A DNA stretch of 47,702 nucleotides. Source: a virus. Within the stretch, counting starts at the first letter, position 1. The number at the start of each line of letters is the position of its first letter. Location: positions 1 through 47,702 of IMG/VR virus record IMGVR_UViG_3300010430_000076, one strand, 5' to 3'. The notes below the pieces were generated by a model. It was not told where the DNA came from, searched no databases, and saw nothing but the letters and a program-made list of their open reading frames with translations. Below, one piece after another: positions 3,598-46,843 of this stretch. Made by a program: the position numbers and the translations under genes.

Positions 3598-3830
3598 GAC
3601 GGCACCTCAATACCCATGGCCCGCAAGTACCGGAACGGCACGCGCCTGCCACATTCGGAGCACCTCGCGTTTACAGGCTCCTGAGTCGGCACTATCTTGC
3701 TATCAGGTTTGCCGGGAGCCGTGGCGGTGAGGCATTGTTTCGCCCACACCACCCACGAAAAAGTAACAGGGGCCGAGCCACACTTCGGGCAGCGCAACGG
3801 CTCCTCGTCCTGTATCGGCCCTGTTTTCAC
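3594..3830 (-). CDS. Zinc-ribbon protein
   Basis: This 78-residue protein has CPKCG near residue 14 and [13 protein letters not shown] near residue 57, a classical two-knuckle zinc ribbon with an intervening Trp/aromatic strand ([11 protein letters not shown]). The start is GTG 3830 and it overlaps the tatA stop as GTGA, so its translation is coupled to tatA. Function unknown; nucleic-acid or protein binding is the general expectation for the fold. Confidence 0.7.
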
Positions 3831-4018
3831 TGAGTGTCCTCCGGCGGCCGCTTCAAATCTTCCTCGATGCCCTCGAGGTCCTCGCCTGCTGATCGCAGGC
3901 CTTTAACAAAGTCGCCCAGATCGTGGCCGAGTGTTCCGATCTTCTTGGTGCCGAAGATCAGGACAACAATGGCCAGCACAATGGCGAGCTGCCAAACACT
4001 AATGCCTCCAAGTCCCAT
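3827..4018 (-). CDS. tatA: TatA/TatE-family twin-arginine translocase subunit
   Basis: This 63-residue protein lines up with bacterial TatA along the whole core. [20 protein letters not shown] forms a short membrane helix (about 6-22), then the FGTKK hinge (22-26) and an amphipathic helix ([18 protein letters not shown]), ending in an acidic tail. Gln10 fits TatA/TatE rather than TatB, which has Glu there. The Phe that is functionally important in the amphipathic helix of E. coli TatA (F39) is Leu41 here. TatA multimers form the passage for folded proteins at the inner membrane. ATG 4018 has AGGAG 7 bases upstream and lies 2 bases after the recT stop. At 63 residues it is nearer TatE than TatA in length. 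Confidence 0.9.
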
Positions 4019-7060: not shown

Positions 7061-7521
7061 GCTCGCTTAATGACGTGAGCGGCGCGACAGATCGCTACGT
7101 TTACTACAAGGGCAATTACAAATACCAGCTCGCAAAGCCCTATATCGCCTCGGTACTCGAGCTCGAAAACCACCCTCCGGCACACATCAGGTCTGATGGC
7201 GGATTTGCGTTTGTCTCTCTGCAGCCAGACGGCTCGTTACTGATCAACGAGGGTTACGCATGGGACGGTGCCAGCGGCCCTGCCCGCGACACGAATAACA
7301 TCATGCGGGCCAGCCTTGTCCATGACGCCCTGTACCAGCTGGGCAGGGCCGGCAAACTGAACTACAGCAGGCGGAAGGCCGCCGATCAGGCGTTTCACCG
7401 CATCTGTCTCGAGGACGGCATGAGCCGCTTCCGGGCTTGGTATGTCTACAGGGCCGTGCGCATGTTCGCTGCCAAGTCGTTCACTGACCCCAGTACGCGG
7501 CCACTGCAGGAAGCTCCCTAG
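7057..7521 (+). CDS. DUF1353-like protein
   Basis: This 154-residue protein has the DUF1353-type pattern: GYAWDGASGPARDT (about 68-81), then SLVHDALYQLGR with a conserved His-Asp, AADQAFHRIC, and a final YRAVRMF. The HD...AD arrangement hints at a metal or small-molecule site, but the biochemical role of the family is not known to me. It is the last gene of the plus operon, and its TAG stop shares the palindrome CTAG with the stop of the convergent giant gene. Confidence 0.75.
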   Translation: MSSLNDVSGATDRYVYYKGNYKYQLAKPYIASVLELENHPPAHIRSDGGFAFVSLQPDGSLLINEGYAWDGASGPARDTNNIMRASLVHDALYQLGRAGKLNYSRRKAADQAFHRICLEDGMSRFRAWYVYRAVRMFAAKSFTDPSTRPLQEAP

Positions 7522-16500: not shown

Positions 16501-19500
16501 GCCTGCAGTTCTGCCAGCTCTTCCTTGTATTCGGCAGCATCTTCGCCGTTGGCCTCACGTCGAGCCACAACCTCCTCGACCTCGAGCACCTCGCGGCTGA
16601 GCTCCTGAGCCTTCTGCTCTGCAGCCTCATAGTCCTTGCGCGGTTTTTCCGCTACTTCCTTCTCGGCTTTTTTGGCAGCAGCCTTTTCTGCCTTGGCCTT
16701 CTGCTGTTGCCTAGCAATGGCCTCATCAAACGCGGCACGCTGGCCATTTTCCTCAATTTCATTTTCAAGATCGAGCTGGAGACTTATCGCCTCGAGCAGG
16801 CTGTTCAGCGCCGCTATTTCACTTTCGCGGGCCTCTTCGGTGTTCGTGTCTACACTGGGCGAATCGCCGTAGCGCCAAGCGGCTTCCTCTTTGTCGCCGG
16901 TGTATGCCTCGAGGGCGTTGTACAGCTCCTGAGTGGGCTCGCCGGTCAGGTATTTTTTGGGGATGCCTTTCGCGCCATACCCGGCAGATGGACCTGCGGC
17001 TTTATTGTCCTCGTTGGCCTGATGGGCATCACGTCGGAGCATCAGCAGGTCCCAGAACCCCTCGTTCTCTAGCGCTTCCTCATCCTCTTTGTAACGCTCA
17101 TACAGCGCGTCCATGGCAGCAACGTCGTTGGCCTTAATTGCCGCTTTGACCTGCGCAAAAAACTCCTCGTCAACGGGGCCTTCGGTACTAGCTTCCTGAC
17201 TAGCTTCCTCGGGCTGAGATTCAGGCTCTGCAACGGGCTCCGGCGTTTCCTGACTAGCTTCGGTGTTAGATTCTGGCTCCATCTGCTGGGCCAGCTTCGA
17301 CAGGATGCCATCGGTTTCCTCGGCAGCCTGCTCCTGACCGGCCAGATCGGCATCAGCTGCGCCCTCTTCGCGGGCCGTGCTGTTCATGGCGATATCGATT
17401 GTTTCAGATAGCAGGGCTTCCTGATCTTCGCGCCACTTGTCGGCGGCCTCTTGGCCCTCGAGTATCACCATCTGTTGGTGTATTTGATCGGCCTCGCCCT
17501 CGTTGATTCCGAGGTCGCGTTTCATTACGTCCTCGCCAACACCCAACGGGTCATTACCCAGCGACAGGTGGGCCTTGATCAGCTCGGCCTGCTCGCGCGC
17601 TTTTTGGTAGTTCTGCTCGAGCTGCTCGCGGTTACGGGCCTTCTGCTGGGCAGCAGCCTGCTCGGCCACCTCTTCGTTACTGGGTGGCTCGATGCTGAAT
17701 ACATCGGTCCAGTCGGCCGGGTCGTAGCTCTCGGCCTCGAGCGCTTCCTCGATGGCCCGGCGCTCTTCCGGAGTCTTGGCCTCGGCCGCCAGTTTGTCGA
17801 TCTTCGTGAAGTCGATATCGCCGATAACATCGTCTGACTTGAGGGGCTCCATGGCCTCCGCCAGCTTGTCCTCGAATGACTGGCCCTGCTGATCTGCCCC
17901 TACGGTCTCTTGCGCCTCAGTCGGAGCTTCCGACAGGCCCCAGCCATCGTCCGGGTCATACCCGGCTTCCTCCAGCGCCTTGCGGACAGCCCCGATCTCC
18001 TCGGCGGTGCTGGCAGAGCTCGCCACATTCTCCATGTCCTCGAACTCGCCAGACTGCAGGCCGGCCTCGGCCTTTTCCAGCCGGGCCTGAAAGTCGCCGC
18101 CCAGACCGCCGCCGCCGGGCGGCGGGGGCTCGCCATCGTCCTGATCGTCGGGTTGCTCACCCAGCTCTGCCGGGGTAGAATCTTCCGATGTTTCCGAAAC
18201 AGATTCTGCAGGTTGTTCAGCTTCTTTTTGTGCTGCTGATTCTTTGGCTGCTGCTTGCTTACGCTGGGCCTCTGAACGCAGACGAGATTCGATTTCGAGG
18301 GCCCGTAAAATCTTCACCGCCTCTTCGGGTTGAAGATCAAGATTACCGTCCTCATCTGGAGTTAGGGCCCTACGAGCAATTGCCTCCGCGCCGTCTCGGT
18401 CTGCCCCGGCATCAACTGCACGAGCCGCGGCTTGTAACACGAAGTCTTGTTCTTGATTCTCTTCCCGTTGAGCATGTTCGCCTTCGATATCGGTCTCTGG
18501 GCTGGAGAAGCCGAACACTGCGCCCATTGCGGAACCTGCCGCCATCCCCGAGGTTACATCCTCGAGCAGGCCTTCCGTTATCTCCTGATCAGGATTGATC
18601 TGCTGGAACGCCATGTTACCGAGCAAAGACTCGGCGGCGCTCTGAGCGCCCTCCTGCAAGGTTTCACCAATACCACCAAGCGCCAGTGACCCCAGCCGTG
18701 TCCGGGCCAGACTCGCAACACTGCCGCCCCAGAGTGGGCCGGTCATAGCACCCATAGGGGCACCTAGCAGCCCGGTGGTGGCGGCAACCATGCTGCCCAC
18801 TTCCTGAGCCAGCTCTGTGGCCACAACGTGGCTGGCGTACTGCAGGCGCTCCATTGGCTCCATGCCTTCGGCCGAAGCGAACACTTCCTGAAAGCGCTCG
18901 TTTTCCCACATCAGCTGAGGGTCAGCCTTCATCACACGCTCATAGGTGTTGTGGCCGCCCATCATGCCGCCGACGATGCCCTCACCAGCGCCGGCACCAA
19001 CAACACCCAGAGCCCGATCTACGCGGATAAGTTTCTTGCGGGCCTGATCTGCCCCTGCCCCGGCAACACGCTTGTAAAACTCAAGGTGTTTTGTGCCTGC
19101 GGCCGCTTTTGTCACCGCCGCCCGATCTACGGCGTTTTTCAGTATGGCCCGGCCAAACGGGTTGGCTGCAAGCTGCAGGCCCTTAGTTATAACCATGCCG
19201 CCGCCCATGCCGGCAACGGTTCCCGGTAAAGCCTGACCGGCCATGCGGGGAATCTTAGACCAGTTCACGTCCCATGAACCGTCCGGGTTTACGTTCAGGA
19301 AGTCAGACGTGGCCTCGTGCTTGGCCTCTTCGGAGTACTTGTCAAACCAGTACTCGACGGCACTATCGCCGGCCTCGTTCACGAAATCTGCAGCGCGCTC
19401 AGCGCCAACCTGATCAAGCGCCCAGCCTACGGCCTTGGCGAACTGGCCGGAGCCCACGCCCCAGTCAGACACCAGATCGCTCATCTTGCCGTCGTTAGGC

Positions 19501-20006: not shown

Positions 20007-20035
20007 AGTTTTATGGCGGGACCTGCCTTGTTCAC

Positions 20036-21262
20036 TTAGCGCTGAGCTGCGCCTCTGCCGCGGGGCCGGGTGTTGCTGTTCTGCCTGATCAGCGGCTTCA
20101 CATCACCTCCAACAATCCGCGCAAATTCTCGCTCAGTCCAATCGTCCAGCAGTGCCCCGCTCATTCCTTGTGCTTTTCCTTGTTCACGAATGTAGTCCAT
20201 CACGGCCTTGCGTGCGCGTACCGATTCCGGAGCCGGTGGCCGCACTCGACCCTGCGCAGTCTTGCGAGGGCCGCTGTCCGTAGCCATGTAGTCGTTCAAC
20301 AGCTTCGCCAGATCGGCATCAGTTTCTGGGCTCAGTGTAATGTTTTCTGCTCCAGCGCGCGCCTGCTTCTGCCGGGCCCGCTTGTTCTGCATGCGCTTGC
20401 CACGGCCGGCAAAGGTGTTATCTCCGCTCACGGTCTGGGCCGCAGTGCCGCCTCCCTTTTCGCGGAGCTTCTCTGCGGCATACTCGTCTGAATCATAGTT
20501 AAGCTGCTGGTCGCCGCTGGCGACGCGCTCACGAGCCGCCACGAAATCCGGGTCCTGAGTGTCTGGCGGAACCGGCCGGCGCTTCTTGCCGCCGCCCTGC
20601 GCCTGTCGGACCTCGCCAGAAAACGAGCTCCAGTCCTGATTCGCTAGATGCTGTGCTGAGCGCCTTGGTATCCCTGCCTGCTCGTAGTAAAGCGCCAGAT
20701 CGGCGGGCGACTCAAGCCCAATATAACCGGCCGAGACCTGTGCAACAGCATGGCGGCGGGTGGCCGCATGTCTGGCCTTGCGGCGCTCGCGCTCGTTGCT
20801 GTCAAATTCTGGTGTGCCTTTTTTCCACAGGTTCTCTGTGGCATTAGTTTTGAATGTTTCGTCAATTCCGTTCAGCTCGTCGCGCAGATCAAGCTGACTG
20901 TCGTAAATGTCCGAAGCAAGCAGCCGGCCGTTGCTGCCACTACCGCGGCCAGAGCCCTCTCCGTAGCGCTGACCACCAAGCGCCAACTCGTGGGCCTGCT
21001 CGTCCTCGCGCACATAATCGTCGCGGCGGGCCTGTCCGGCCTTGGCGTCGCCCTCGAGCTTGCCGGCGTGCGTGGTCTCGTCCTTGCGGAGCCGGCTGGC
21101 GTTTCCCTGCCGGAGCATTGTGCGGTTGTGCTCAATAGCGGCCTGCTTCTCGCGCCACGAGCGGTCCTCGGCGTTTTCCTCGCGCTGGAAGTGGCGGTCT
21201 CCGAGTCGGCCAAGGCCTTCGCCGGCCACCAGTAGCGCTTTGCCTAGCTGCTCATTGCTCAC
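20036..21262 (-). CDS. Probable internal virion protein
   Basis: This 408-residue protein starts MSNEQLGKALLVAGEGLGRL. It is highly charged (Arg, Glu, Gln), mostly helical, with Gly/Ser linkers (GEGSGRGSGSNGR) and a basic C-terminus (NTRPRGRGAAQR). No enzyme motif. The position immediately before the giant gene and after other Ala-rich proteins is that of internal/ejection proteins in podoviruses, which is the basis of the call. Confidence 0.6.
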   Translation of the reverse strand: MSNEQLGKALLVAGEGLGRLGDRHFQREENAEDRSWREKQAAIEHNRTMLRQGNASRLRKDETTHAGKLEGDAKAGQARRDDYVREDEQAHELALGGQRYGEGSGRGSGSNGRLLASDIYDSQLDLRDELNGIDETFKTNATENLWKKGTPEFDSNERERRKARHAATRRHAVAQVSAGYIGLESPADLALYYEQAGIPRRSAQHLANQDWSSFSGEVRQAQGGGKKRRPVPPDTQDPDFVAARERVASGDQQLNYDSDEYAAEKLREKGGGTAAQTVSGDNTFAGRGKRMQNKRARQKQARAGAENITLSPETDADLAKLLNDYMATDSGPRKTAQGRVRPPAPESVRARKAVMDYIREQGKAQGMSGALLDDWTEREFARIVGGDVKPLIRQNSNTRPRGRGAAQR

Positions 21263-24695: not shown

Positions 24696-25148
24696 TCAAA
24701 ACAGCCGGCTTAGCCAGCTGGCCTCCGCGCTTCCCGTGATGATCGCCTTCTTATCGTCACTGCGCTTTTTCACATACCCGAGATAGCCGGCACCAAATAG
24801 CACGTAGAGCTCGCGGGGCAGAGACTCGAGGTAGGCCTTCATCCCGGCCGAGGCCGATTTAACCTCCTCTGGGTACCAGACCCCGAGTATCCCGAAGGGG
24901 ATGGCCAGCAGGATAAAGACGTACATCACATACAGGAATGTTGGCCGGGCCCGGGAGGTCCACGGGTCCTTTGACTGGGCCTCGATGGTGATCGCCTTGA
25001 GCTGGTTCTCTTGCTCGCGGAACTCCCCGTCCTGCGCCATTTTGGCCAGCTCGAGCTTGGCGGCCTGCCGATCGGCGGCATCCGGCACGACCTTATCGAT
25101 CAGCTTGCTGCCGGCCTCTAGTATTGTTCCTATCACTGGTACACCCAT
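24696..25148 (-). CDS. Holin, 3TM gene-transfer-release type
   Basis: This 150-residue protein begins with an amphipathic segment, then Ala/Gln-rich helices leading to DPWTSRARPTFLYVMYVFIL, the signature I associate with the 3TM holin family (W-T-S-R-ARP before the first strong membrane helix, about 70-90). A second hydrophobic segment follows (about 112-124), ending in YVKKRSDDKK. The holin would permeabilise the inner membrane at lysis. The M15 endolysin two genes upstream completes the cassette. Confidence 0.8.
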   Translation of the reverse strand: MGVPVIGTILEAGSKLIDKVVPDAADRQAAKLELAKMAQDGEFREQENQLKAITIEAQSKDPWTSRARPTFLYVMYVFILLAIPFGILGVWYPEEVKSASAGMKAYLESLPRELYVLFGAGYLGYVKKRSDDKKAIITGSAEASWLSRLF

Positions 25149-25161
25149 GGGCCATACTCCA

Positions 25162-25575
25162 TTAGTTGCAGTCGTATTTCTTGCCTTCGGTCCTATGCTT
25201 GCTGCCAGTCAGGCGCTGGTATCGGCGGTATTCGCCCTCAACGCCCTTGAACTGGTTGCCGCACAGGTAGTCGTGAATCTCTGACTTGCTGTACTCGCTT
25301 GGCTTATTGTCTTTGTGCTTCTTGTGTTCGTTCAAAGCCCACGGAATGTTACGCAGCACCAGATCATGCTCTACGGCTCTGGCTGACTGCTGTAGAGGCT
25401 CGATCTGCTGTAACACTTCCTGCTTGGTCGCGTAATCACCGTTCTCAACTTCCTGCACTGTAGCCGGCTCGATGCTGTCGGGCACCTCGATCTTGTCCAC
25501 GATCAGCCAGATAGCAGCAACAGCTGCCGCTATACCGCCCCAGTCCTTTACCTTCTGCTTTGTTTCTTTAATCAT
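25162..25575 (-). CDS. Possible inner-membrane spanin-like protein
   Basis: This 137-residue protein has one N-terminal membrane helix (WGGIAAAVAAIWLIVDKI, about 12-29) followed by a polar, helical, Lys/Glu/Gln-rich region with two Cys. It sits between the endolysin and the holin, where i-spanins are often found, and its topology (N-in, C-out) would suit. The Cys pair and beta-like end are not typical of Rz. An outer-membrane partner is not evident here. Confidence 0.45.
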   Translation of the reverse strand: MIKETKQKVKDWGGIAAAVAAIWLIVDKIEVPDSIEPATVQEVENGDYATKQEVLQQIEPLQQSARAVEHDLVLRNIPWALNEHKKHKDNKPSEYSKSEIHDYLCGNQFKGVEGEYRRYQRLTGSKHRTEGKKYDCN

Positions 25576-25988
25576 AGAATTAGCTCAAAGTGTCCGAGGT
25601 CCTGAAATGTCTGATCATCAATCACATCATCATCCCGGTCCCAGTTTCCGCCCCAGCGCAGTTTGTAGCCCAGAATAAATGCCGTCTGCATGACGAGCCC
25701 GGCCACATAAACAAACTCGTTCTCGTCCTGCCACCTGATCGGATACGGCGCGATATCGATAGCAATGGCGAGCCCGTGCATCTGGCCCTCGGCATTGACG
25801 TTGTGTTTCGAGTTAGGCCATTGCGTTTTGGACAGCCCACGCCGGAATAGATCGTCCTGCTCATCCTTGTCGCGGAAACCAGAGAGCACAGTGATATCAC
25901 GGTGATCGACCACCATTTCCATAATCTCAGCTATCCGTGGGTCCACGGTGTCCAGAATCTCGCGCGATTTTTTACCAAAGCTCGGCAT
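25572..25988 (-). CDS. Endolysin, M15-family L-Ala-D-Glu-type peptidase
   Basis: This 138-residue protein is a VanY/M15 peptidase: VLSGFRDKDEQ, then SKHN with His62, AIAIDIAPYPIRW with Asp78, and LGHFEL with His133, the three zinc ligands, and LRWGGNWD before the last. It cleaves a peptide bond in peptidoglycan stems, as in T5 endolysin. No signal peptide is present, so release depends on the holin encoded downstream. The length is that of a single catalytic domain. Confidence 0.9.
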   Translation of the reverse strand: MPSFGKKSREILDTVDPRIAEIMEMVVDHRDITVLSGFRDKDEQDDLFRRGLSKTQWPNSKHNVNAEGQMHGLAIAIDIAPYPIRWQDENEFVYVAGLVMQTAFILGYKLRWGGNWDRDDDVIDDQTFQDLGHFELIL

Positions 25989-27397: not shown

Positions 27398-27861
27398 GAC
27401 TCGGCCTCCAGTGTGATCTCTATGATCACCTCGCCCGGCATAGCGCCGGTGCCCGCGCCATCAGTCAGAACCTCGATTGCACCGAATGCCGCGACGGTAT
27501 TATCGGCCGTGGGAACGACCGGGGTTTGCACGGTGCCCAGCACCTCCGCGCTCGCAATCGTGAGGGCTGGCATGGTTACAGCAACCCCGCCGATCTCCAG
27601 TGTGATCGCCGTAGCCGCGCCGCCGCCATTGGCCGCGTCGTTGACCACGCTAACATTGGTGATTGTGCCGGCCAGCGGAGCGATTACATATTGGCTCTGC
27701 GCGCCGTTGTTCAGGTCAGCGAAGCGACACCGAATATAGTGCTTCTCCAGCGTGGCTATAGCGTCCTCAACCGCCTCTAGCTCGTTGCGCATTTTCTGCG
27801 AACTGCCGTGCGAGCCGCTTATCGGGTCGCCACTTGGTGAGTAAAGTCTTGAGCTTGACAT
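27394..27861 (-). CDS. Beta-sandwich-like structural protein
   Basis: This 155-residue protein has a short helical N-terminus (LEAVEDAIATLEKHYIRC), then a long beta-rich Ala/Gly/Thr/Val region resembling phage head-fibre or tail decoration sandwiches (SQYVIAPLAGTITNVSVV; MPGEVIIEITLE). The stop and next start overlap by one base. Function as a virion surface protein is inferred. Confidence 0.55.
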   Translation of the reverse strand: MSSSRLYSPSGDPISGSHGSSQKMRNELEAVEDAIATLEKHYIRCRFADLNNGAQSQYVIAPLAGTITNVSVVNDAANGGGAATAITLEIGGVAVTMPALTIASAEVLGTVQTPVVPTADNTVAAFGAIEVLTDGAGTGAMPGEVIIEITLEAES

Positions 27862-30779
27862 TATGTTCTCCGGTCTTGGCGGCGCTGGCGAAAAGTGGTA
27901 GCCAGCCCGCGTAGCGTATGCGGGGGGTCAGAGGCGGTGGTGCCGGTAAGCAGCAGCCCAAAGTTCACGCCTTCGCCCTCCATTTTGAGGTGAATCATGC
28001 CCTGCACGGGTTTGTCCCATGTAAAGTTATCCCACGTAAAAGAGTCCCAGTTGCCGCCACCGGCGGTACTGGGCAGGGCGATCAGCCCGGTCTTGCTGTA
28101 ATTCGGGTCCGACAGGTTGTATTCCCACTGGGCCGATAGCGATACCGAGCTGCCGATCAGGCAATCGAGGCGGGCCTGTGCGTATTTCTTAAACGTCATT
28201 GGGCTCTTGTTGTGAACATAGGGGAGGCGAATGTGGTACGACATTTCAGCCCCGTCGAAGCTGTTGCCGGTCTCCATTTCGTATATCCAGCCGTCTGTAT
28301 CAGCGAAGAACGCACGCTCCAGCCCGGCCCGGCTCTCTTCGCAGACTATGCACTCCGGCACAATCGGCATTTCGAGCATCATCAGGCCTGACACTTTCTT
28401 GTCTTTAAACCCAACCGAAATAATCGTGCCATCGTCAAAGAAACAGCGATATCGGTTCTTCCGGCGTAATACCATGGAGCCTTTAACGCCGACCTCGCCC
28501 TGCACGAGCCGGTCAATCACCGGCTGTATCTTCTCACTGATCGAATTGTCCACGTAGTTGCCGAAGCGGTCTGTGGACTGCAGCGTAGCAAAGCCCTGAT
28601 CGTCAAAGAATATGCCGCCGCCAATCCAGCCAATGCTGTCGGCCCGAGCGCCGGCGCGCTGGTTGAATTTCTCAATCTTGAAGTTGGCCGCACTGTCACC
28701 GGCCAGAAAGTAGGCCTGATTCCGGGTAAAGATAAACAGAGTGCCAGCCATTTCCTCCAGATACCCTGTGATCTCGTCGCCTACAGCCATCTCCTCGGCA
28801 CCGGTGATCACCTTCCATGCCAGCGGGTCGGCCAGACTTGAGTGCTGCGACGAGCCGCCCGAGAACCCTAACCAGAGGTGCAGCTTGTGCACGCCTATGT
28901 GCTCAGGTGTATCGGTGGTCATGCCGGTTGTGATCTGGGTGAACACGTAACTGCTCTGCTCGCCCTGATCGGTGAACTCAAAGGCCTTGTCTACGCCGCT
29001 TACGCCGTACATCGAGTAGCGGTCTGTGTGGCCTGAGAAGTTGTAATTGCGGAACCGGTACTTGCCGCCCGGCTGTAGCGTGGGGGCCTCGGTGGCCACG
29101 CTGCCGTCAACGTCTGCAATGGTGGTTGCGGTCCCGTATAGATTGATATCTTCGCCGGTAGCCCATGTGCCGTTTACGTCACTCACCACGAAGTAGCCCG
29201 CCGCGTCCACGCCCCACGCGCCACTGGTGGTCACTACACGCTCGACATAGGCATCAGCTGAGGACGTGCCGCCCTCAATGCGCGTTCCGGGCAGAGGCGG
29301 CTGCTGAGCGGTCCCTACGCCCGTATCGAAGTACAGGATGGTGTTGGGTATGATCTCGAGCCAGCCCCCGCTGGTGGACTGGTACATTTTGCCTGTAAGG
29401 CCGTCCGTGCTGTCGCGGAAAGCATACAGATTGTCGTTATAGAACCATAGGCCTCGTGGCGGGCCCGAGCCCGGCACGGCCCCTATACTGCTCACATCGG
29501 CCGCGCTGCCCAGTGACATGTAATAGGCATGCAGCGCCGGGTCTGATTCGCCCTCCTGATCGTTGGTGCCGTTACTGGTCATGCCGGTGTCTACAGCACC
29601 GATCTCAAGAGCCTCGCCTACCTGAAACGCGCCCGTGTCGCCGAAAATAAGATCGCCCGTGTAGTAGCTGGCCGTCGCGCCTTCGGTTTTTACATAGGTG
29701 CTCGCCTCTGGCGGCGAGCTGTAGCCGCCCGCCAAGTCCTTCTGGACCTGCAGGCCACCCATCAGGTAGTGGTAATTATCTAGGTTGTTATCATCATAGT
29801 CCCAGTACCAGCTGGGCTCGCTTCCGCCGGTCCTGACAGCCCCCTGATAGAACTTAATGCCGAACTGGCCACCGCCGCTGATACTGGCAACACGGAAGGT
29901 AAGCGTGACATGAACCGCAGGAAAAACATCTGTAGCCGGCACGTCTGTCGAGTCATAAACAGCTGACACGTCTGCATTGCCGGTATCCCAGATCGCACTG
30001 CGCCCATCGTTGTACTCGGACTGTTCCCTGAAATTAGCGACCCGAACTTGCAAAGCCCCGGCCCCGCTGCCAGCAGCGTTTTCAAACGTGACCTCGCCGC
30101 CTGTCGTAACAATCTCCAACCCGGAAAAGAATGCGCTCGGATTGTTGTTAACAACCCTTGCGTCGTGGGCACACCAAAAGTCTATCTGCCAGTACTGACC
30201 AACGCTGTCGGCTGTAAAATAATCGTCCGGAGTCTCAAAGCCGTTATAGCTGTTACCCTGATCTGATACAGCATTGTCCTGCATGGCATTCAGCACAATG
30301 GTGTCGCCGAATTTCGTGGGATAGCTCAGAGCATTGCTGGCGGTGTCGCTGTCCAGCGTCATGTATTTGAGCGGCGTGTAGTGCGCGTTCTCAAAATCTT
30401 CTGACCAGATATTCTTGTTTTCTATAGACAGCTGGCCATTATCAGTGAACGCCAGTATCGTGCCGTCAGCGCCACTGTCGGCTCCTACCACCACGTCCCC
30501 GACCTGCGGATATGGCAAGGGCACGTCCTCCGATTTCCACGGCATGTGCCAATAGGTGGGCAACCCGACCAAGGTGCCATCAAAGCGCTGATAGCCCTTT
30601 ATGCGCTCATAGCCGCCGTCTACGCCCATTTCGTAGTTAATGGCGGACAGGCACTGCCCGGGGCTGATGGCGAGCTCTGAGTCAACGAGGTTCAGGCCGC
30701 CCGCAAATGCGATTACATCCTGCTCTGTTTTACCCCACTTAGACCGCTGGCCCCTGATTGCTTTGGATATATCAAGCAT
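27861..30779 (-). CDS. Tail tube/stabilisation protein (tubular B-like)
   Basis: This 972-residue protein begins with VIAFAGGLNLVDSELAISPG and NYEMGVDGGYERIKGYQRF, a pattern of podovirus tail nozzle or stabilisation proteins, followed by a long beta-propeller-like region with many repeats of Trp/Tyr/Gly strands, and a middle section GTLFIFTRNQAYFLAGDSAA typical of the same family. It directly follows the adaptor gene and overlaps it by 8 bases. It would form the distal tail tube through which DNA passes. Confidence 0.8.
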   Translation of the reverse strand: MLDISKAIRGQRSKWGKTEQDVIAFAGGLNLVDSELAISPGQCLSAINYEMGVDGGYERIKGYQRFDGTLVGLPTYWHMPWKSEDVPLPYPQVGDVVVGADSGADGTILAFTDNGQLSIENKNIWSEDFENAHYTPLKYMTLDSDTASNALSYPTKFGDTIVLNAMQDNAVSDQGNSYNGFETPDDYFTADSVGQYWQIDFWCAHDARVVNNNPSAFFSGLEIVTTGGEVTFENAAGSGAGALQVRVANFREQSEYNDGRSAIWDTGNADVSAVYDSTDVPATDVFPAVHVTLTFRVASISGGGQFGIKFYQGAVRTGGSEPSWYWDYDDNNLDNYHYLMGGLQVQKDLAGGYSSPPEASTYVKTEGATASYYTGDLIFGDTGAFQVGEALEIGAVDTGMTSNGTNDQEGESDPALHAYYMSLGSAADVSSIGAVPGSGPPRGLWFYNDNLYAFRDSTDGLTGKMYQSTSGGWLEIIPNTILYFDTGVGTAQQPPLPGTRIEGGTSSADAYVERVVTTSGAWGVDAAGYFVVSDVNGTWATGEDINLYGTATTIADVDGSVATEAPTLQPGGKYRFRNYNFSGHTDRYSMYGVSGVDKAFEFTDQGEQSSYVFTQITTGMTTDTPEHIGVHKLHLWLGFSGGSSQHSSLADPLAWKVITGAEEMAVGDEITGYLEEMAGTLFIFTRNQAYFLAGDSAANFKIEKFNQRAGARADSIGWIGGGIFFDDQGFATLQSTDRFGNYVDNSISEKIQPVIDRLVQGEVGVKGSMVLRRKNRYRCFFDDGTIISVGFKDKKVSGLMMLEMPIVPECIVCEESRAGLERAFFADTDGWIYEMETGNSFDGAEMSYHIRLPYVHNKSPMTFKKYAQARLDCLIGSSVSLSAQWEYNLSDPNYSKTGLIALPSTAGGGNWDSFTWDNFTWDKPVQGMIHLKMEGEGVNFGLLLTGTTASDPPHTLRGLATTFRQRRQDRRT

Positions 30780-31512: not shown

Positions 31513-32025
31513 TTAGTCCTTTTCCGGGCCAAATCGCTTATCAAGCAGCAGCTTGATATTGGCATTTTTCATTCCAGTGCCGGTAGCGGGCTTCATTTCC
31601 TGCCTTTCCACCATTTCGGCGATCACGCGGAAGTTCAGCTCTTGGAGCTCCTTGCGCACGCTCTGGCGATCGCTCCCGGCAATCTTAGTGTCGATCACGT
31701 CCGTGACCTTTTCGTTGTCCTTGGTGTTCCGGTTGTCGGCCTCGCCGGGGGTTGGCGTGGTCGCGCCTTCCGGCGACCGTGTGCCTTGTGTCTGTGGCGG
31801 CGCGCTCTTCGGCGGTGTGGGTGGGGCCTTGGGCTCCGCCTTCTCCGCAAGCATCGCTTTGTAGTCCTCAGTGCTCATGAGGACCTGCTCAGGCGTCATG
31901 TAGTTGCGGTGAATATCAAAAGCGTTGCCGTCCTGCAGGTAGCGCTGCGGGCCGCTTGCGTTGCGCACACGGCCGTAACCGCGAGCGCTGTCAAAAACTG
32001 GTGTTTTGCTAGTCGTGTTGGGCAT
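31513..32025 (-). CDS. Hypothetical protein with Pro/Thr-rich linker
   Basis: This 170-residue protein has YLQDGNAFDIHRNYM and PEQVLMSTEDYKAM near the start, a Pro/Ala/Thr-rich linker (about 65-95), then a basic helical end with NANIKLLLDKRFG. ATG 32025 has AGGAG 8 bases upstream. It lies downstream of the capsid genes and of a terminator. Possibly a head-completion or assembly protein; not recognised. Confidence 0.6.
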   Translation of the reverse strand: MPNTTSKTPVFDSARGYGRVRNASGPQRYLQDGNAFDIHRNYMTPEQVLMSTEDYKAMLAEKAEPKAPPTPPKSAPPQTQGTRSPEGATTPTPGEADNRNTKDNEKVTDVIDTKIAGSDRQSVRKELQELNFRVIAEMVERQEMKPATGTGMKNANIKLLLDKRFGPEKD

Positions 32026-32091
32026 GTCTAATGCTCCTAGTCGGTGGGTATCAGTATGCTGTTGGCGTAACGATCATCTAGTTCAGGCGCT

Positions 32092-32386: not shown

Positions 32387-32848
32387 TTACCACCATGCGA
32401 TAACGATGGTGACAGCAGCGATACCGCCCGGCGTGCCGCCGGTCGGGGCCAGATAGGTGGCCACGATCTCTGCTATATCATCACCGCTCGCGCCAACGTC
32501 AAAGACACCCGGGCCAGCAAGGTCATTGTCACCCAGCTGGTTTTTCAGGGTATCTGCATCGATTGCCAGAGCGTCCGCGAGGTTGAAGTTAGCCCCAACA
32601 TCAGCAGCATCCGGTATGCGCATATCGCAGTATTTATCGGCATCCGTGCCGTCACCGATCTGAACGCCACCCTCGGTGGTATCGTCAGTAAAATCTTCGG
32701 TAATGTCATGGATGAGAATTTCCTCGATGCGGCCGCGGGTTACGCCGCGAGGCACACGAATCGGGAAGGTGGTGGTTCCCGCACCGAAGTCAATACTGAC
32801 TTCGTTGTACGAGATTCGGGCAGGATTGTCGTATGTAAGTCCGTTCAT
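32387..32848 (-). CDS. Capsid-associated protein, possible decoration protein
   Basis: The frame is open to 32863, but ATG 32848 is better. GGAG lies 8 bases upstream and it overlaps the capsid stop as ATGA, giving 153 residues. It is beta-rich and acidic (NEVSIDFGAGTTTFPIRVPR, EEILIHDITEDFTDDTTEGG), ending AAVTIVIAWW. Translational coupling to the capsid gene and termination just after suggest a high-copy head component such as a decoration protein. Confidence 0.65.
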   Translation of the reverse strand: MNGLTYDNPARISYNEVSIDFGAGTTTFPIRVPRGVTRGRIEEILIHDITEDFTDDTTEGGVQIGDGTDADKYCDMRIPDAADVGANFNLADALAIDADTLKNQLGDNDLAGPGVFDVGASGDDIAEIVATYLAPTGGTPGGIAAVTIVIAWW

Positions 32849-33849
32849 GATGCAGACTCCCATTTAAGGACCCGGGCTTCGGAGTTGCCGAACCCTGAGT
32901 GCACCAGACCAAAGCCGCCCAGATAGTACCAAGCGACACCCTTTGAACGCCCGAAGTCAGTCGGAATCTTGCCGCGGATTTCTTCGGGGATACAGATGGC
33001 TTCTGCCACAGTATCCTCGCCGAGGAAGAAGGCCCAGTCTGACTCGCCTTGGTCCCACGCATCGTTTTCGGTGCGGAAGGTCCAACCTGCTGCTACAGCA
33101 TCGATAGCGCCGCCTGCAGCAATGTGGGTCTGCTCAATGAAGCGCACACCTTCGTAGCGCCCGATCTCGCCGTTCATGATCTTGGCGGTGCCGGTCTCCA
33201 CATACTTGTGCAGGGCTTCCAGTTCGTCTTTGAAGGGGCGGAACGTAGTAGGCCGGGCCACGCAGTAGTAATCATCGTCTGCGTAGGCCGGAATGTTCCG
33301 CTCTTTCATTTCGTCAACGATGCCCTTGATGTGGGTGGTGCCCAGCGGCTTGTTGTTTTGGGTGGTCGTAGCCACCGAATCGTCAACAATTACGCCATCA
33401 CCAGCACCTGAGCCACCGTCAGGGACGGCGGTAAGCGGGGTTGCGTTGAACTGGTTGAAGGCAGCGCCGTCGAGCGTTTTCACTGCATCGAGTTTCAGGA
33501 CCTTGTTGATGATCTCGGTAACAGGCACCTTGCTCAGATCGTCCAGCTTTTCAGTGAACGGTACAGAGTTGCCGTATTCCGTGATCTCCAGTTGGCCCTG
33601 AGTGATCGTGAAATTCGTCTCAGGCATGGCTTCTTGCTCATTGAGCTCGCCGCCGCCTGTTGCCACGTTTGAGAAAACGTCCCAGTTGAAGTACTGGCCT
33701 TTACCCAAACCCTTATTTGTCGCGTCCTTGGCATCACAGAACTGGCGGAAGCGAATCATCGGCTGCACGACAATGCGCAGCAGAGACGATAGCTCGTCCG
33801 AGTACATGAAACCGCCAAGTGCGTTGACACTCCACAGTTGTCCAGCCAT
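32845..33849 (-). CDS. Major capsid protein, N4-gp56-like
   Basis: This 334-residue protein has the pattern of N4-gp56-type capsid proteins: MYSDELSSLLRIVVQPMIRF, FCDAKDATNKGLGKGQYFNW, MPETNFTITQGQLEITEYGN, NSVPFTEKLDDLSKVPV, and FNQFNATPLTAVPD near the middle, with a C-terminal WYYLGGFGLVHSGFG. It has the HK97 fold and builds the shell. It follows the scaffold gene. ATG 33849 has AAGGAG eight to nine bases upstream, a strong ribosome site suitable for a highly expressed gene. Confidence 0.88.
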   Translation of the reverse strand: MAGQLWSVNALGGFMYSDELSSLLRIVVQPMIRFRQFCDAKDATNKGLGKGQYFNWDVFSNVATGGGELNEQEAMPETNFTITQGQLEITEYGNSVPFTEKLDDLSKVPVTEIINKVLKLDAVKTLDGAAFNQFNATPLTAVPDGGSGAGDGVIVDDSVATTTQNNKPLGTTHIKGIVDEMKERNIPAYADDDYYCVARPTTFRPFKDELEALHKYVETGTAKIMNGEIGRYEGVRFIEQTHIAAGGAIDAVAAGWTFRTENDAWDQGESDWAFFLGEDTVAEAICIPEEIRGKIPTDFGRSKGVAWYYLGGFGLVHSGFGNSEARVLKWESAS

Positions 33850-39760: not shown

Positions 39761-40033
39761 TCAAGCGGCTACCGGCGGCAGGCCTTCCTTGAAGGCCGGC
39801 TCCGCAAAACCACATTGCAGCTTGAACAGATCGAGCGCCATGGCCGGCATCGCCCGGAAGCTCGGGTTGGGCTTGCCGTCCTTTTCTGGCGGGGCAAACC
39901 ATGAGCACACGTAGGCCTGCTTGTAGCCCGTGATCTCGATCAGCAGCCGCATTCGCTGGTTGTTAAGTTCCGGCCGGGAAGCAAGCAGCTCCATCAGCTC
40001 GGCGTTATTGTCGGGGTGTGTCTGCTTACTCAT
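39761..40033 (-). CDS. Small HTH-like protein next to TerL
   Basis: This 90-residue protein has LLIEITGYKQAYVCSWFAPP in the middle, the Gly-x-x-x-x-x-Val-x-x-Trp layout of a helix-turn-helix (ITGYKQAYVCSWF), followed by FRAMPAMALDLFKL. GGAGG sits just before ATG 40033. Adjacent to terL it may be a small terminase or a regulator, but the order (after terL) is unusual for terS. Confidence 0.6.
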   Translation of the reverse strand: MSKQTHPDNNAELMELLASRPELNNQRMRLLIEITGYKQAYVCSWFAPPEKDGKPNPSFRAMPAMALDLFKLQCGFAEPAFKEGLPPVAA

Positions 40034-41508
40034 TCGACCTCCGGTTCATACATGTCTGATTCGCCGGCCCACGAGAGGTTTTGCTTGACTGGCGACACCT
40101 GCGCAAAGGTAAGCGCTAGTGCGTCAGCAAAGTCAGGGCTCGCGATGCCACGTTTTCTCATATCGTCTTTGGACTCCAGCCGCATCAGGTTGGAGTTGTC
40201 ATACGCATACTCTGGACCGATCAGATCGGCAAAGAGCTGTTTCTCTGCGGGAATGTCGGCGTGGGCCAGCCACTCCCTCATTCGATACCACCACTCTATG
40301 CGCGGATTGTAGAACACGCGCTTATCAATTACCTCTTTTCGCTCGCCTGCATAGGCCGGAATAATGTTGTACCCGCGCTGCAGGAGTAACAGGTAAACGC
40401 CATGGCCATAGCCCACGGCATCGATAAAGATCACGTCAGGCTCCCACTCGTTAATGTACTGACCTATGTAGCCGGCGATCTTTACAGGGTCAGCCTCGCG
40501 GAAGTGCGGCATTTCGGGCTTGAGCTTGGGGCCCTTACGCATACAGATAACCGTCTCTGCGTCGCCGTAAGAACCGATATCGACGCCCATGAGCTTCGGT
40601 AGGGCCCCCGGTATGGTTTCGTCCTTTATGTCCCGCATTTGCGCGGCCTCTGCCACGTCTGACGGGATGAGCTGCTTCGGGCCGGCCGCAGGGAACCGGC
40701 CCAGCACGCGAACCCTCACAAAGTCAGAGTCCTCGCCATAGTCCTCTATCCATTTGTCGAGCTGGCGTCTATCTGCCATCTTCGCCGTGCGACTGTCCAC
40801 GCGCATGGTTATCCAGCGCTTGGCAAACTTGGTCCAACACTCCCTGAAACGCCCGGTATTCTTGGTGGGGTTCCCGAAGCAGAGCCACATTGCGCCGGGC
40901 GTGGTCATAGCGCCCTCGGCGGTTTCCCAAATGATATCGTCAATCTCTGAGGCCTCGTCGAACAGCATCAGTACGTGCTCTTCATGAGTACCGGCGAATG
41001 CGCCGGCGTGGGCAGCGTTCCATGGAACGGCTGTGCCGAACCACGTCTCTGGGTCGCTGCGCATCTTGATCTGGGTCGCGGTGTAGTCGAACCAGTGGCC
41101 GTGTATGGCCATTTCCTTCCACTTGGCCAGCTCTCGCCACGTCTTGGTAGTGAGCTGGTTGCGGGTGTTAGCAGTTACAACGATCTGCGGGTTTGGCCGG
41201 GTCGATATAAACCAGAGGATAATCCAGCTGGTCATGGCGGTCTTGCCGATGCCATGGCCCGAGGCCACGGCCATTTGGATGGCCTCGTTATCGGGAAAAC
41301 CGTTCCTGATCTCCTCGCCGAGCCGGGTCAGCAGCTTTGTTTGCCACTCATCAGGGCCTTCCTCATCAGCCAGCCGGGTGCCGGGCTGCCCCCACGGAAA
41401 CACGAAGTACACGAAGCCCAGCGGGTCTCCGTAGAACTCGGCCATCTTCTCGGCAAGGAAGTTATCGTCATATCGCTCTTGGGGGTGTTCCGCTGCGGCG
41501 ATATCCAA
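40030..41508 (-). CDS. terL: Terminase large subunit
   Basis: This 492-residue protein has a Walker A motif, SGHGIGKTA (83-91), and Walker B, VLMLFDEASEI (DE at 184-185), for the packaging ATPase, then an RNase-H-type nuclease with GVDIGSYGDAETV (Asp310), VIFIDAVGYG (Asp363) and SPDFADALAL (Asp459, Asp462). It powers DNA packaging into the head through the portal and cuts the genome. The start is TTG 41508, with GGAG 9 bases upstream; later in-frame starts would truncate the conserved N-terminus. Confidence 0.93.
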   Translation of the reverse strand: MDIAAAEHPQERYDDNFLAEKMAEFYGDPLGFVYFVFPWGQPGTRLADEEGPDEWQTKLLTRLGEEIRNGFPDNEAIQMAVASGHGIGKTAMTSWIILWFISTRPNPQIVVTANTRNQLTTKTWRELAKWKEMAIHGHWFDYTATQIKMRSDPETWFGTAVPWNAAHAGAFAGTHEEHVLMLFDEASEIDDIIWETAEGAMTTPGAMWLCFGNPTKNTGRFRECWTKFAKRWITMRVDSRTAKMADRRQLDKWIEDYGEDSDFVRVRVLGRFPAAGPKQLIPSDVAEAAQMRDIKDETIPGALPKLMGVDIGSYGDAETVICMRKGPKLKPEMPHFREADPVKIAGYIGQYINEWEPDVIFIDAVGYGHGVYLLLLQRGYNIIPAYAGERKEVIDKRVFYNPRIEWWYRMREWLAHADIPAEKQLFADLIGPEYAYDNSNLMRLESKDDMRKRGIASPDFADALALTFAQVSPVKQNLSWAGESDMYEPEVE

Positions 41509-45171: not shown

Positions 45172-45412
45172 GCGACCCAACCATACTGATCGCGTGCGGT
45201 AAGTTGCTCGCCCGACTCATCAGCTCCAGAGCGAAATCTCGCTGAATCATGTCGTACTCGATCACCACAAAATCGTAGAGCACTGATTTGCAGGCTCCGC
45301 ACACAAAGACGGCCCGGCCCCGGCACTCGATCTTGCCACCCTCTTCCTTGTGGTCGAAATCGTGCTCGCACAGCGTGCACGGGGCATGGCTAGGTGTATC
45401 GTCTGCGGCCAT
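45164..45412 (-). CDS. Small zinc-finger-like protein
   Basis: This 82-residue protein has CTLCEHDF (about residues 12-19), an IECRG and CGACKSV, spaced for a zinc ribbon, then an amphipathic helix. It overlaps its upstream neighbour (the short Tat-signal gene) by 23 bases. Function unknown. Confidence 0.65.
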   Translation of the reverse strand: MAADDTPSHAPCTLCEHDFDHKEEGGKIECRGRAVFVCGACKSVLYDFVVIEYDMIQRDFALELMSRASNLPHAISMVGSRG

Positions 45413-45626
45413 TCTCGTTTACCTCCCAACCCATAGATCGCATGTGATTGTCCCTAATCGCCTGCCACTTGGCAAACGAGTCGTTGTACATGACCGTCTC
45501 GGTAGGCCCGGTAAAGTCGGTTTCGTCCTCCATGGAGAACCGCGGCGGGGTCGGAGCCAGCTTGGCGCTGATCGCCACGGCCGCCACTGCCATCGTCACT
45601 GTTTTTAGAAATCCGCGTCTATTCAT
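45390..45626 (-). CDS. Short exported protein with Tat signal
   Basis: This 78-residue protein begins MNRRGFLKTVTMAVAAVAIS: the twin-arginine motif NRRGFLK, a moderately hydrophobic Ala/Val core and a polar AKLAPTPPR region, the layout of a Tat signal peptide. Mature residues (about 30-78) are acidic then basic (YNDSFAKWQAIRDNHMRSMG), without Cys or catalytic motif. It is close in sequence, over the first 25 residues, to the protein at 45954-46565. Tat cargoes are folded before export, and this phage also encodes a TatA. Cargo or decoy are both possible. Confidence 0.65.
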   Translation of the reverse strand: MNRRGFLKTVTMAVAAVAISAKLAPTPPRFSMEDETDFTGPTETVMYNDSFAKWQAIRDNHMRSMGWEVNENGRRRYT

Positions 45627-45954
45627 TGCTCTTTCTCGGTGATGGGACCAGTACCGAGCCCATGTTGTTGGGTAGGACCTCGCCGCATCCGTAACAGCGC
45701 CTTAATTCGCCCGGCGCGACAGGGCTGCCATCTGGCTTGCGGGCCTCGGCCGAGCTTGGCTGCATGTCGGCCAGATAATACTCCTCTCGGTACTGAAACG
45801 CTGGTTTCCGGCACTTAATGTGTTTCAGCATCAGGAACCCGGGCTCTGTCGCGGCCTCTCGGGCCGCAGCAAACCAGTCGATGTTGTCGATCTTCTCGCC
45901 GAACTCTTCCTTGCTGATGCTCAGCGGCCGCGGGGTGTCGCCCTTGCCTGCCAT
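45619..45954 (-). CDS. Hypothetical protein with Cys knuckle
   Basis: This 111-residue protein starts MAGKGDTPRPLSISKEEF, a start I associate with small proteins of T7-like and related phages, and has KHIKCRKPAF and RCYGCGEVLPNN, two Cys pairs that could bind zinc. It sits between the two Tat-signal genes and overlaps both. Function unknown. Confidence 0.65.
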   Translation of the reverse strand: MAGKGDTPRPLSISKEEFGEKIDNIDWFAAAREAATEPGFLMLKHIKCRKPAFQYREEYYLADMQPSSAEARKPDGSPVAPGELRRCYGCGEVLPNNMGSVLVPSPRKSNE

Positions 45955-46565
45955 CAGGCTACGTCCGTCCGCCAGAGCGGCTTGTAGTAAGCCACGGCAT
46001 CAGACAGGTGCGACTTGCCGCCAACCGGTCCCACGGCCTTGATCGGGTCCTGCACCATAAAGGCCTCACCGGGCTTGCAGTGCGGGTTTGCATGAAACTT
46101 TACACCTTGGCGCTGGAGTAGCTTGGCCTCTTCGGGCCGGACCACATACTCATACCGCAGGGCCTTGATCTCGTTGTGCTTGGCCTCTTCAACAAGGTAC
46201 CGTAGCATCTGCTCTGAAAGTGTTGTCTTGCCGAATGCCCGGCCTCTGGCAAACGCATACTCGCTGCCATACTTCGGCATCGGTATGTCGTAGGGGGTAA
46301 TTTCATCCATCACCACGATATCAAAAGCCCGGCCGCGCAGGTGCTGGCTCTGCTGGGCCCCGTGGGCCACAAACGTGCAGCCCCGATAGTTGCCGATCAT
46401 GCCGTTCATCAGGCCCGAGACGTTCACATCAGCGAACTTCTCTGCCAGATCGGCAGCCGCAACAAGGCTATCCTCCAGCTTTGGTAGAGGTGGGGCCATC
46501 CTTGCAGCGATAGCTACTATGGCTGTAGCCGCCACTGCCTGTTTTAGAAACTGCCGTCTGTTCAT
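45954..46565 (-). CDS. Tat-signal-bearing protein with an ATPase-like segment
   Basis: This 203-residue protein begins MNRRQFLKQAVAATAIVAIA: NRRQFLK, an Ala-rich core and ARMAPPLPK, a good Tat signal. The following domain has GNYRGCTFVAHGAQQSQHLR, RAFDIVVMDEIT (81-88, resembling a Walker B of the terminase/ATPase type) and FARGRAFGKTTLSEQM, which lacks a regular P-loop. An ATPase fold with a missing nucleotide site is possible. The start overlaps the upstream stop (ATGA). If exported, a nucleotide-binding role would be unexpected; a Tat signal that holds a protein at the membrane is another possibility. Confidence 0.6.
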   Translation of the reverse strand: MNRRQFLKQAVAATAIVAIAARMAPPLPKLEDSLVAAADLAEKFADVNVSGLMNGMIGNYRGCTFVAHGAQQSQHLRGRAFDIVVMDEITPYDIPMPKYGSEYAFARGRAFGKTTLSEQMLRYLVEEAKHNEIKALRYEYVVRPEEAKLLQRQGVKFHANPHCKPGEAFMVQDPIKAVGPVGGKSHLSDAVAYYKPLWRTDVA

Positions 46566-46843
46566 ACCGATCTCTTGAATAGGTTTTCGTATATCCGCTC
46601 TACCCAGCTCGCCTTTCCGGGCCTCGCGCGTTGAAATGTGATCGTGCCGGGCTCCGGGCAGAGCTTACGCTGAAAGCCGGGCAGCTTCATATTGTGCTCG
46701 AGCTGCTCCTCCGAAGTCTTGCCTAGCGCGGTAGACGGCTTCCAGTGATGGCTCCCGTCTGGCTGGGCCTCGTAGGTGCCGTACATGACCTCGACACGCA
46801 TGGGCCTGCGCCCGACCTCCGGGGGCCGGCTGATAAATATCAA
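46562..46843 (-). CDS. Small hypothetical protein
   Basis: This 93-residue protein probably starts at TTG 46843 (AAGG 7 bases upstream; overlaps the previous stop as TTGA). ATG 46801 (MRVEVMYGTYEAQ) is an alternative. Contains HHWKP, a basic middle and a C-terminal amphipathic helix (WVERIYENLFKRSV). No family recognised. Confidence 0.55.
   Translation of the reverse strand: MIFISRPPEVGRRPMRVEVMYGTYEAQPDGSHHWKPSTALGKTSEEQLEHNMKLPGFQRKLCPEPGTITFQRARPGKASWVERIYENLFKRSV

Follow-up and report, generated by a model that had tools for sequence, protein, structure and literature searches.

In the twin-arginine (Tat) export pathway of bacteria, the twin-arginine motif is read by TatC, and TatA joins once a substrate has bound; the pathway rejects unfolded cargo and can export hitch-hiking partners (PMC6708511; PMC9527704). 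Bacterial Tat substrates (TIGR01409/PF10518) carry an N-terminal (S/N)RRxFLK motif, an uncharged Ala/Val core and a Pro/Ala end, and the phage proteins described here share these features as well as the leader length. They differ in being phage-encoded, in lacking a cofactor domain, in their very small and variable bodies, in the head-protein copies present within these bodies and, often, in the lack of an AxA cleavage site.

A further set of related systems is represented by capsid-sensing immunity. The capsid protein is a direct immune trigger of CapRel (PMC9712102) and of Thoeris (PMC11312562), and Lit/Gol is cited as capsid-triggered immunity in the former paper. The phage leader genes copy the proteins that are known triggers in capsid sensing (CapRel, Thoeris ThsB and Lit/Gol), including, in the case of locus L306, a T4-type gp23. 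However, CapRel, Thoeris and Lit are host genes, whereas the leader genes are phage genes, and the connection made here is by analogy. Tab, a prophage-encoded block of virion assembly, is similar in that a small phage protein acts against the assembly of another phage, which corresponds to one of the rival models considered below, although Tab targets tails and possesses neither a Tat leader nor a capsid copy. No report of phage TatA, phage Tat signals or capsid-fragment decoys was found in the open-access full-text literature, and a class of genes in which an export leader is fused to a piece of the phage's own capsid protein is apparently undescribed.

Two predicted Tat-leader genes in the window

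The window, i.e. the whole stretch of DNA analysed here, comprises the complete IMG/VR record (47,702 bases, linear class, without end repeats) of a podovirus-type phage, the terminase of which exhibits about 40-53% identity to those of vir555, Vibrio phage 1.021 and Pseudomonas phage AF. One ORF of 4,162 aa (7518-20006) represents an internal-virion or polyvalent-type giant protein. Five minus-strand genes, in the order 93, 203, 111, 78 and 82 aa, form a cluster in which starts and stops overlap by a few bases, which is the pattern of a real phage gene cluster. Two genes with NRRxFLK leaders had been proposed in an earlier note on this DNA, and both ORFs (78 and 203 aa) were confirmed at 45390-45626 and 45954-46565, respectively, on the minus strand. 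The features relevant to the analysis are as follows.

46562..46843, minus strand: 93-aa gene that overlaps the 203-aa gene at the start of the latter (ORF)
45954..46565, minus strand: 203-aa protein with a Tat leader and a capsid-like segment (ORF, both start and stop overlapping; TIGR01409 17.0 bits)
46482..46565, minus strand: predicted Tat leader of the 203-aa protein, residues 1-28 (MNRRQFLK, an uncharged Ala/Val core and APPLP)
46314..46439, minus strand: capsid-like segment of the 203-aa protein, residues 43-84 (alignment to own major capsid protein)
45619..45954, minus strand: 111-aa gene between both leader genes, overlapping each (ORF)
45390..45626, minus strand: 78-aa Tat-leader protein (TIGR01409 27.5 bits; body without detectable relative)
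45543..45626, minus strand: predicted Tat leader of the 78-aa protein, residues 1-28 (14 of 24 residues the same as in the other leader)
40030..41508, minus strand: large subunit of the terminase, encoded downstream of both leader genes (phrog_2, 8e-38)
32845..33849, minus strand: major capsid protein (MCP), from which the segment is copied (match to phrog_1357, major head protein, at 2.3e-15)
33094..33207, minus strand: capsid-gene stretch for residues 215-252, matched by the 203-aa protein (alignment)
3827..4018, minus strand: phage-borne TatA, 63 aa (PF02416 and TatA models)

The 78- and 203-aa proteins start with MNRRGFLKTVTMAVAAVAISAKLAPTPP... and MNRRQFLKQAVAATAIVAIAARMAPPLP..., respectively. 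Tat-signal prediction agreed with the earlier assignment, as both leaders (27.5 and 17.0 bits, respectively) scored above the cut-off (16.7 bits) of the curated NCBIfam model TIGR01409 TAT_signal_seq; with Pfam TAT_signal, the leaders scored 17.9 and 15.4 bits, below the cut-off of 22.7. A rule-based six-frame scan of the window identified exactly these two Tat-like starts, the chance expectation being 0.017 per 47.7 kb (order-3 Markov genomes of the same composition). In both leaders, the core following the twin-arginine motif is uncharged, moderately hydrophobic and within a length of 12-20 residues. By eye, a possible signal-peptidase AxA site (AIA-A) was seen in the 203-aa protein, and no clear AxA was seen at the usual place in the 78-aa protein. 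No redox-cofactor motif was found in either cargo, as had been claimed. The two leaders share 14 of 24 residues, an identity equalled by just 1.6% of leader pairs from different contigs, and 47 of 84 nt, with unrelated bodies (z 0.4). Judged by their sequences, both are genuine, predicted Tat signals. Profile searches revealed no family match of note for the 111-aa gene between them and no family match for the 93-aa gene.

The leader-gene class and its relation to TatA

Genes of this kind were searched for in IMG/VR using an exact DNA pattern for MNRRxFLK, with nothing demanded after the Lys. The AAC-codon pattern was present in at least 119 stretches (80 loci among the matches listed) and the AAT-codon pattern in 115 stretches (complete). 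Nearly all of the AAC matches listed (>70) were true starts of ORFs of at least 50 aa with an uncharged hydrophobic core, and among the 65 non-redundant proteins from these listed matches, 38 were recognized by Pfam TAT_signal and 36 by TIGR01409. Approximately 40% of the AAT-pattern matches were chance matches or failed the leader test (MNRS..., short ORFs), one cause being that MGN includes Ser codons as well. The bodies of the leader proteins are mostly orphans of 57-240 aa, with few PHROG matches, mainly to head and tail proteins. Leader genes are thus rare in absolute terms and scattered over unrelated phages, and the class is very probably real. In the relative G001 (L003), a leader gene starting with MNRRQFLKGMLAAGATVIA..., with a leader above the Tat model cut-off, is located immediately upstream of the portal gene. 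The closest relative found with the gene order of the window, G018, carries one gene whose N-terminus, MKRRNFLAFLGFAPAAP, is related and which is located within 31595-32065, upstream of the terminase; this Tat-like start was below the cut-off of the Tat-signal model and was not reported by it.

The leaders behave as a mobile module, judging from their distribution over different genes. For example, five genes with unrelated bodies share the leader MNRRDFLKGTAAAGAAAVLPL, the DNA of which is 89-99% identical among them over 72 nt; the upstream sequences of these genes are unrelated bar one exception, and two of the genes are present in one phage. The leader DNA of L144, L350, L359, L340 and L324 contains a perfect 13-bp inverted repeat, GCACCGCTGCGGC-GGGA-GCCGCAGCGGTGC, which encodes the hydrophobic core, and this repeat of the shared leader may represent a mobile unit. 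Two or more leader genes were detected in 16 of 71 contigs, so that the two leaders of the window are typical of the class; the highest number, five, was observed in a single phage, G119 (L438, 423-13367).

The TatA at 3827-4018, likewise claimed before, was shown to be real (PF02416 35.1 bits, cut-off 21; up to 7.7e-18 in NCBIfam), the best-scoring models being those for TatA/TatE and not TatB. Its alignment retains the conserved Gln at the end of the N-terminal region, the Phe-Gly hinge and the amphipathic helix of bacterial TatA (PF02416), from which it differs in its short 63-aa form and its location beside recT in a phage, without tatB or tatC; no TatC was found in the window. The closest TatA proteins are gammaproteobacterial, the best being a Halieaceae TatA (69% over 54 aa), which suggests the host group. 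The distance of '42 kb' between TatA and the cargoes given in the earlier note is probably an artefact of the linear contig. Both in G018, which is syntenic with the window, and in vir555, a circular phage, recT/erf and an exonuclease are located upstream of the terminase; the recombination genes of the window are found at the opposite contig end, on the strand that also carries the leader genes. This gene order indicates that TatA is probably encoded on the strand of the cargoes and upstream of them, at a distance of ~5 kb plus a gap of unknown length, and the simplest reading is that the contig was opened in the terminase-upstream region.

Ordinary export had been proposed for these genes, with phage TatA setting the capacity and phage cargoes making use of it; in this reading, the cargoes would be unrelated and would be destined for the periplasm. 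The combination of TatA with two leaders in the window, and of TatA with a leader gene 2 kb away in an unrelated phage, is consistent with this proposal. However, a general role of TatA as capacity partner of the cargoes was not supported, since it was present in only 1 of 115 other leader-selected viral contigs (1/72 in the AAC scan, among the matches listed, and 0/43 in the AAT scan), and the capsid segments described below would be left unexplained, making ordinary export quite improbable. TatA is also absent from G001 and G018, the nearest phages with a Tat-type leader, and in view of this absence and its rarity the leaders must normally use the host Tat system.

The sole TatA-bearing contig among the 115, G021 (L263/L264, IMGVR_UViG_3300033149_006404, region 15685-20968), is a real, unrelated phage with a portal and a terminase. 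Its TatA (75 aa, 20741-20968) differs from that of the window and is encoded 2 kb from the leader gene (18554-18847); a second leader-like start, MNRREAFRNIGAGA, was observed at 15685-15981. Using the TatA of either the window or G021, tblastn identified no real phage TatA in 50,697 annotated phage records, the seven records matched by the window TatA being apparently bacterial contigs filed as phages, and a viral-contig search with the window TatA, singly or as a 13-sequence alignment, returned no relative. On these counts, TatA is an occasional addition and not the core of the leader class. The two independent captures of TatA beside leader genes (window and G021) are suggestive, and a loose link across phages is possible. 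A function of TatA as a holin was considered and rejected: the window encodes a separate holin-like gene with multiple helices (24696-25148, by eye) and its own M15-type endolysin in a lysis cassette with adjoining small membrane proteins (25572-25988, by eye), so that TatA is not needed in this role.

Head-protein segments in leader-protein bodies

Residues 43-84 of the 203-aa protein were found to align with residues 215-252 of the MCP of the same phage (IMNGEIGRYEGVRFI / LMNGMIGNYRGCTFV). In a comparison of this cargo with 4,279 proteins from about 70 phages, the phage's own MCP ranked first, followed by the MCP of the nearest relative, G018, at the same place. The cargo-MCP score was reached by 0 of 20,000 shuffles for residues 41-90 and by 4 of 20,000 for the whole body, and the 203-aa ORF was the best of 559 six-frame ORFs for own-MCP similarity (score 65, compared with 59 and 53 for the next-best). 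At a z of about 6 (6.2), the match is weaker than that of any other clear case. The 203-aa protein, combining a predicted Tat leader with an own-MCP segment, is accordingly a member of the proposed class. The leader is the sole class feature of the 78-aa protein, the body of which gave no capsid or other match and, in a viral-contig search, no relative. Residues 85-203 of the larger protein gave no convincing match, tblastn with the cargo gave no match in annotated phages, and the AlphaFold model of the 203-aa protein alone was unusable (pLDDT 36).

The 'ATPase-like segment' attributed to the larger cargo in the earlier note was not upheld, as GpA_ATPase scored 15.4 bits (cut-off 25.6) and no similarity to the own TerL was seen (z 1.4). 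A terminase/ATPase reading of this protein, which would call for Walker A followed by Walker B in the order of the family and for a significant profile match, was rejected, the Pfam match being sub-threshold; an M15 peptidase reading was likewise rejected, the match scoring 18.4 bits (cut-off 23.2) and spanning 19 residues. The earlier interpretation had recognized the Tat signals and TatA, and had overlooked the main feature, i.e. the capsid segment present in the larger cargo and in many relatives.

To place this segment in the wider class, each leader body was compared with all ORFs of its own genome by BLAST and by Smith-Waterman alignment with shuffles. In a first sample (about 45 contigs with 56 leader genes, from the AAC matches listed), 8 of the 56 genes matched own-genome proteins by BLAST; all targets were 305-412 aa in length and were major head proteins by PHROG, except for the G047 target, which had no PHROG match. 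Own-MCP z values were 17 (G055), 15 (G031), 14 (G083), 12 (G001) and 11.5 (G075), with lower values of 7.8 (G047), 7.3 (G043), 6.8 (G030) and 6.2 (window); the MCP identity of the G047 and G030 targets was assigned through relatives or by eye, and all others were PHROG-confirmed. A further body (G052) matched its own portal-like protein (z 12). The copied capsid region was shown to vary, being N-terminal in G031, G055 and G075, C-terminal in G001 and G083, and internal in the window, G047 and G030. Among neighbouring genes of similar size in this sample, no match was identified as a capsid protein.

For an independent second sample (AAT scan, 24 contigs, 35 leader genes), it was forecast beforehand that at least 10% of bodies would show an own-capsid z of at least 6. 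Values of 30 (G093), 25 (G095, leader gene at 574-864), 17 (G102), 12 (G096) and 9.7 (G120) were obtained with PHROG-confirmed targets, and a second leader gene of G093 matched the C-terminus of the same capsid protein (z 6.7). The two leader genes of G093 (L401, 3310-3612 and 3772-4206) thus copy the N-terminus and the C-terminus of one capsid protein. In G094, the body matched the own, PHROG-confirmed portal (z 9.9). Across both samples (about 70 contigs), 15 of 91 leader genes matched the own MCP at z≥6, compared with 1 of 129 neighbouring genes (Fisher 9e-6), these controls being neighbouring ORFs rather than curated genes, some of which may be non-genes and the targets of which were partly identified. 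The single control match is a leaderless gene adjoining the leader gene in G102 (L419, 24475-24915); it carries the capsid N-terminal motif YIPEIWS and thereby copies the capsid N-terminus a second time in this phage. Furthermore, the leader gene ranked first for own-MCP similarity among 215-934 six-frame ORFs in 14 of the 17 listed phages. About 80% of bodies gave no capsid or other match; as the contigs are metagenomic and often incomplete, the fraction with a capsid segment is a lower bound.

The copied pieces comprise 20-55 residues, mostly of the MCP and sometimes of the portal or terminase. An entire terminase large subunit starting with a Tat leader was found at L092 850-2421 (G043 27785-29359), and another leader gene of this phage matches its own capsid protein. 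In a comparison with 50,697 annotated phages, the L314/L316 protein matched the major head protein of Tunturiibacter phage Tunturi_3 (1e-9). The L306 protein matched T4-type gp23 capsid proteins at residues 95-131 of a Klebsiella phage Miro protein (2e-4), a part of gp23 that may lie near the Gol peptide or overlap it.

These data bear on whether the products have a function. If the leader and its ribosome-binding site were a promiscuous start module that captures random pieces, the products would be functionless debris, and the occurrence of the same leaders on unrelated, mainly orphan bodies is what such a process would yield. However, the captured pieces derive overwhelmingly from the capsid gene, which represents about 2-3% of the genome, and such pieces are not a feature of neighbouring genes (1/129). 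Moreover, at about 35-60% identity the pieces are not fresh, yet they are still open and overlap their neighbours; debris is therefore unlikely. A second possibility is that a dominant-negative capsid peptide at the membrane poisons the head assembly of superinfecting relatives. The segments track the own capsid protein, with the own MCP as the top match, and assembly-blocking exclusion is known, e.g. Tab, which acts on tails (PMC10884400). Unless suitably timed, or unless the phage itself were insensitive, such interference would also affect the phage's own assembly, and it would leave the leader without an obvious use, and we consider it distinctly unlikely.

Possible action of capsid segments at the membrane

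The leader-capsid fusions arose independently in unrelated phages and capsid families, and this recurrence points to a selective force on the recognition of capsids, exerted at the bacterial membrane or across it. We lean slightly towards an explanation in which these small phage genes, each consisting of a mobile Tat leader and a fast-changing body that often contains a short copy of the own head proteins, place a capsid mimic at the membrane. As the phage lacks TatC, the leader would be read by the host TatABC, and TatBC, the receptor in the inner membrane, would receive the body; a folded body, or one with a folded partner bound to it, could then be transported across this membrane. The capsid segment at the membrane would mimic the capsid protein. 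In the reading preferred here, the mimic would be a decoy and may bind a host capsid-recognising factor, e.g. a capsid-sensing immune protein, which would then be held at the membrane or exported through Tat hitch-hiking. The captured TatA of the window phage and G021 may provide more translocation capacity for such complexes, the class as a whole having no need of TatA.

The decoy was tentatively ranked first, with a tether for head assembly just behind, because capsid proteins trigger bacterial immunity. Drawn by analogy with capsid sensing, the specific decoy reading is held with low confidence. Held with slightly lower confidence is its extension to counter-immunity by Tat hitch-hiking, in which the baits would strip the cytoplasm of head-protein sensors and a few phages would add TatA. 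Several observations may weigh against the decoy. The folding of a capsid piece of 20-55 residues is doubtful, while Tat rejects unfolded cargo (PMC6708511). As different capsid regions are copied in different phages, a single common binding target is not obvious, and one leaderless neighbour (in G102) also carries a capsid segment.

Alternatively, the leader could anchor a capsid, portal or terminase peptide in the membrane, where it would capture the phage's own head proteins and nucleate or position procapsid assembly or packaging. The copied proteins represent exactly the head-assembly set (MCP, portal and terminase), some leader genes are located beside the portal gene (G001) or between terminase and portal (L077/G031), and T4 proheads start at the membrane. 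Conversely, leader gene and capsid gene are on opposite strands in 6 of 17 phages (G055, G030, G047, G045, G093 and G095), so that the leader gene is probably not a late head gene there; in addition, transport by Tat would leave the body on the wrong side of the membrane. Such a tether is a doubtful explanation, although one that we take seriously. We regard as highly improbable that the leader proteins saturate or block the host Tat translocase, the body serving as an unfolded plug: the bodies are short and probably unfolded, and unfolded Tat cargo remains with the translocase (PMC6708511), but capsid segments would not be required and a phage TatA would counteract the block.

If the decoy reading is true, the leader genes would represent a new kind of counter-defence and a natural bait for finding capsid-sensing immune proteins, and if the tether is true, the picture of the assembly site in such phages would change. 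Both readings are directly testable with small, easily expressed proteins.

Other properties of the leader proteins were also observed. A post-leader motif, LLWxPGxKxIFLP or IFLPPxGGW, is common to G093, G095, G098, G055, G030, G026, G031, G120 and L102, and within the fetched contigs was seen in leader-type proteins and hardly elsewhere. In L088, L093, L097, L069 and L124, the leader is followed by beta-helix or tail-spike-like bodies of the pectate-lyase type, which are possibly exported depolymerases.
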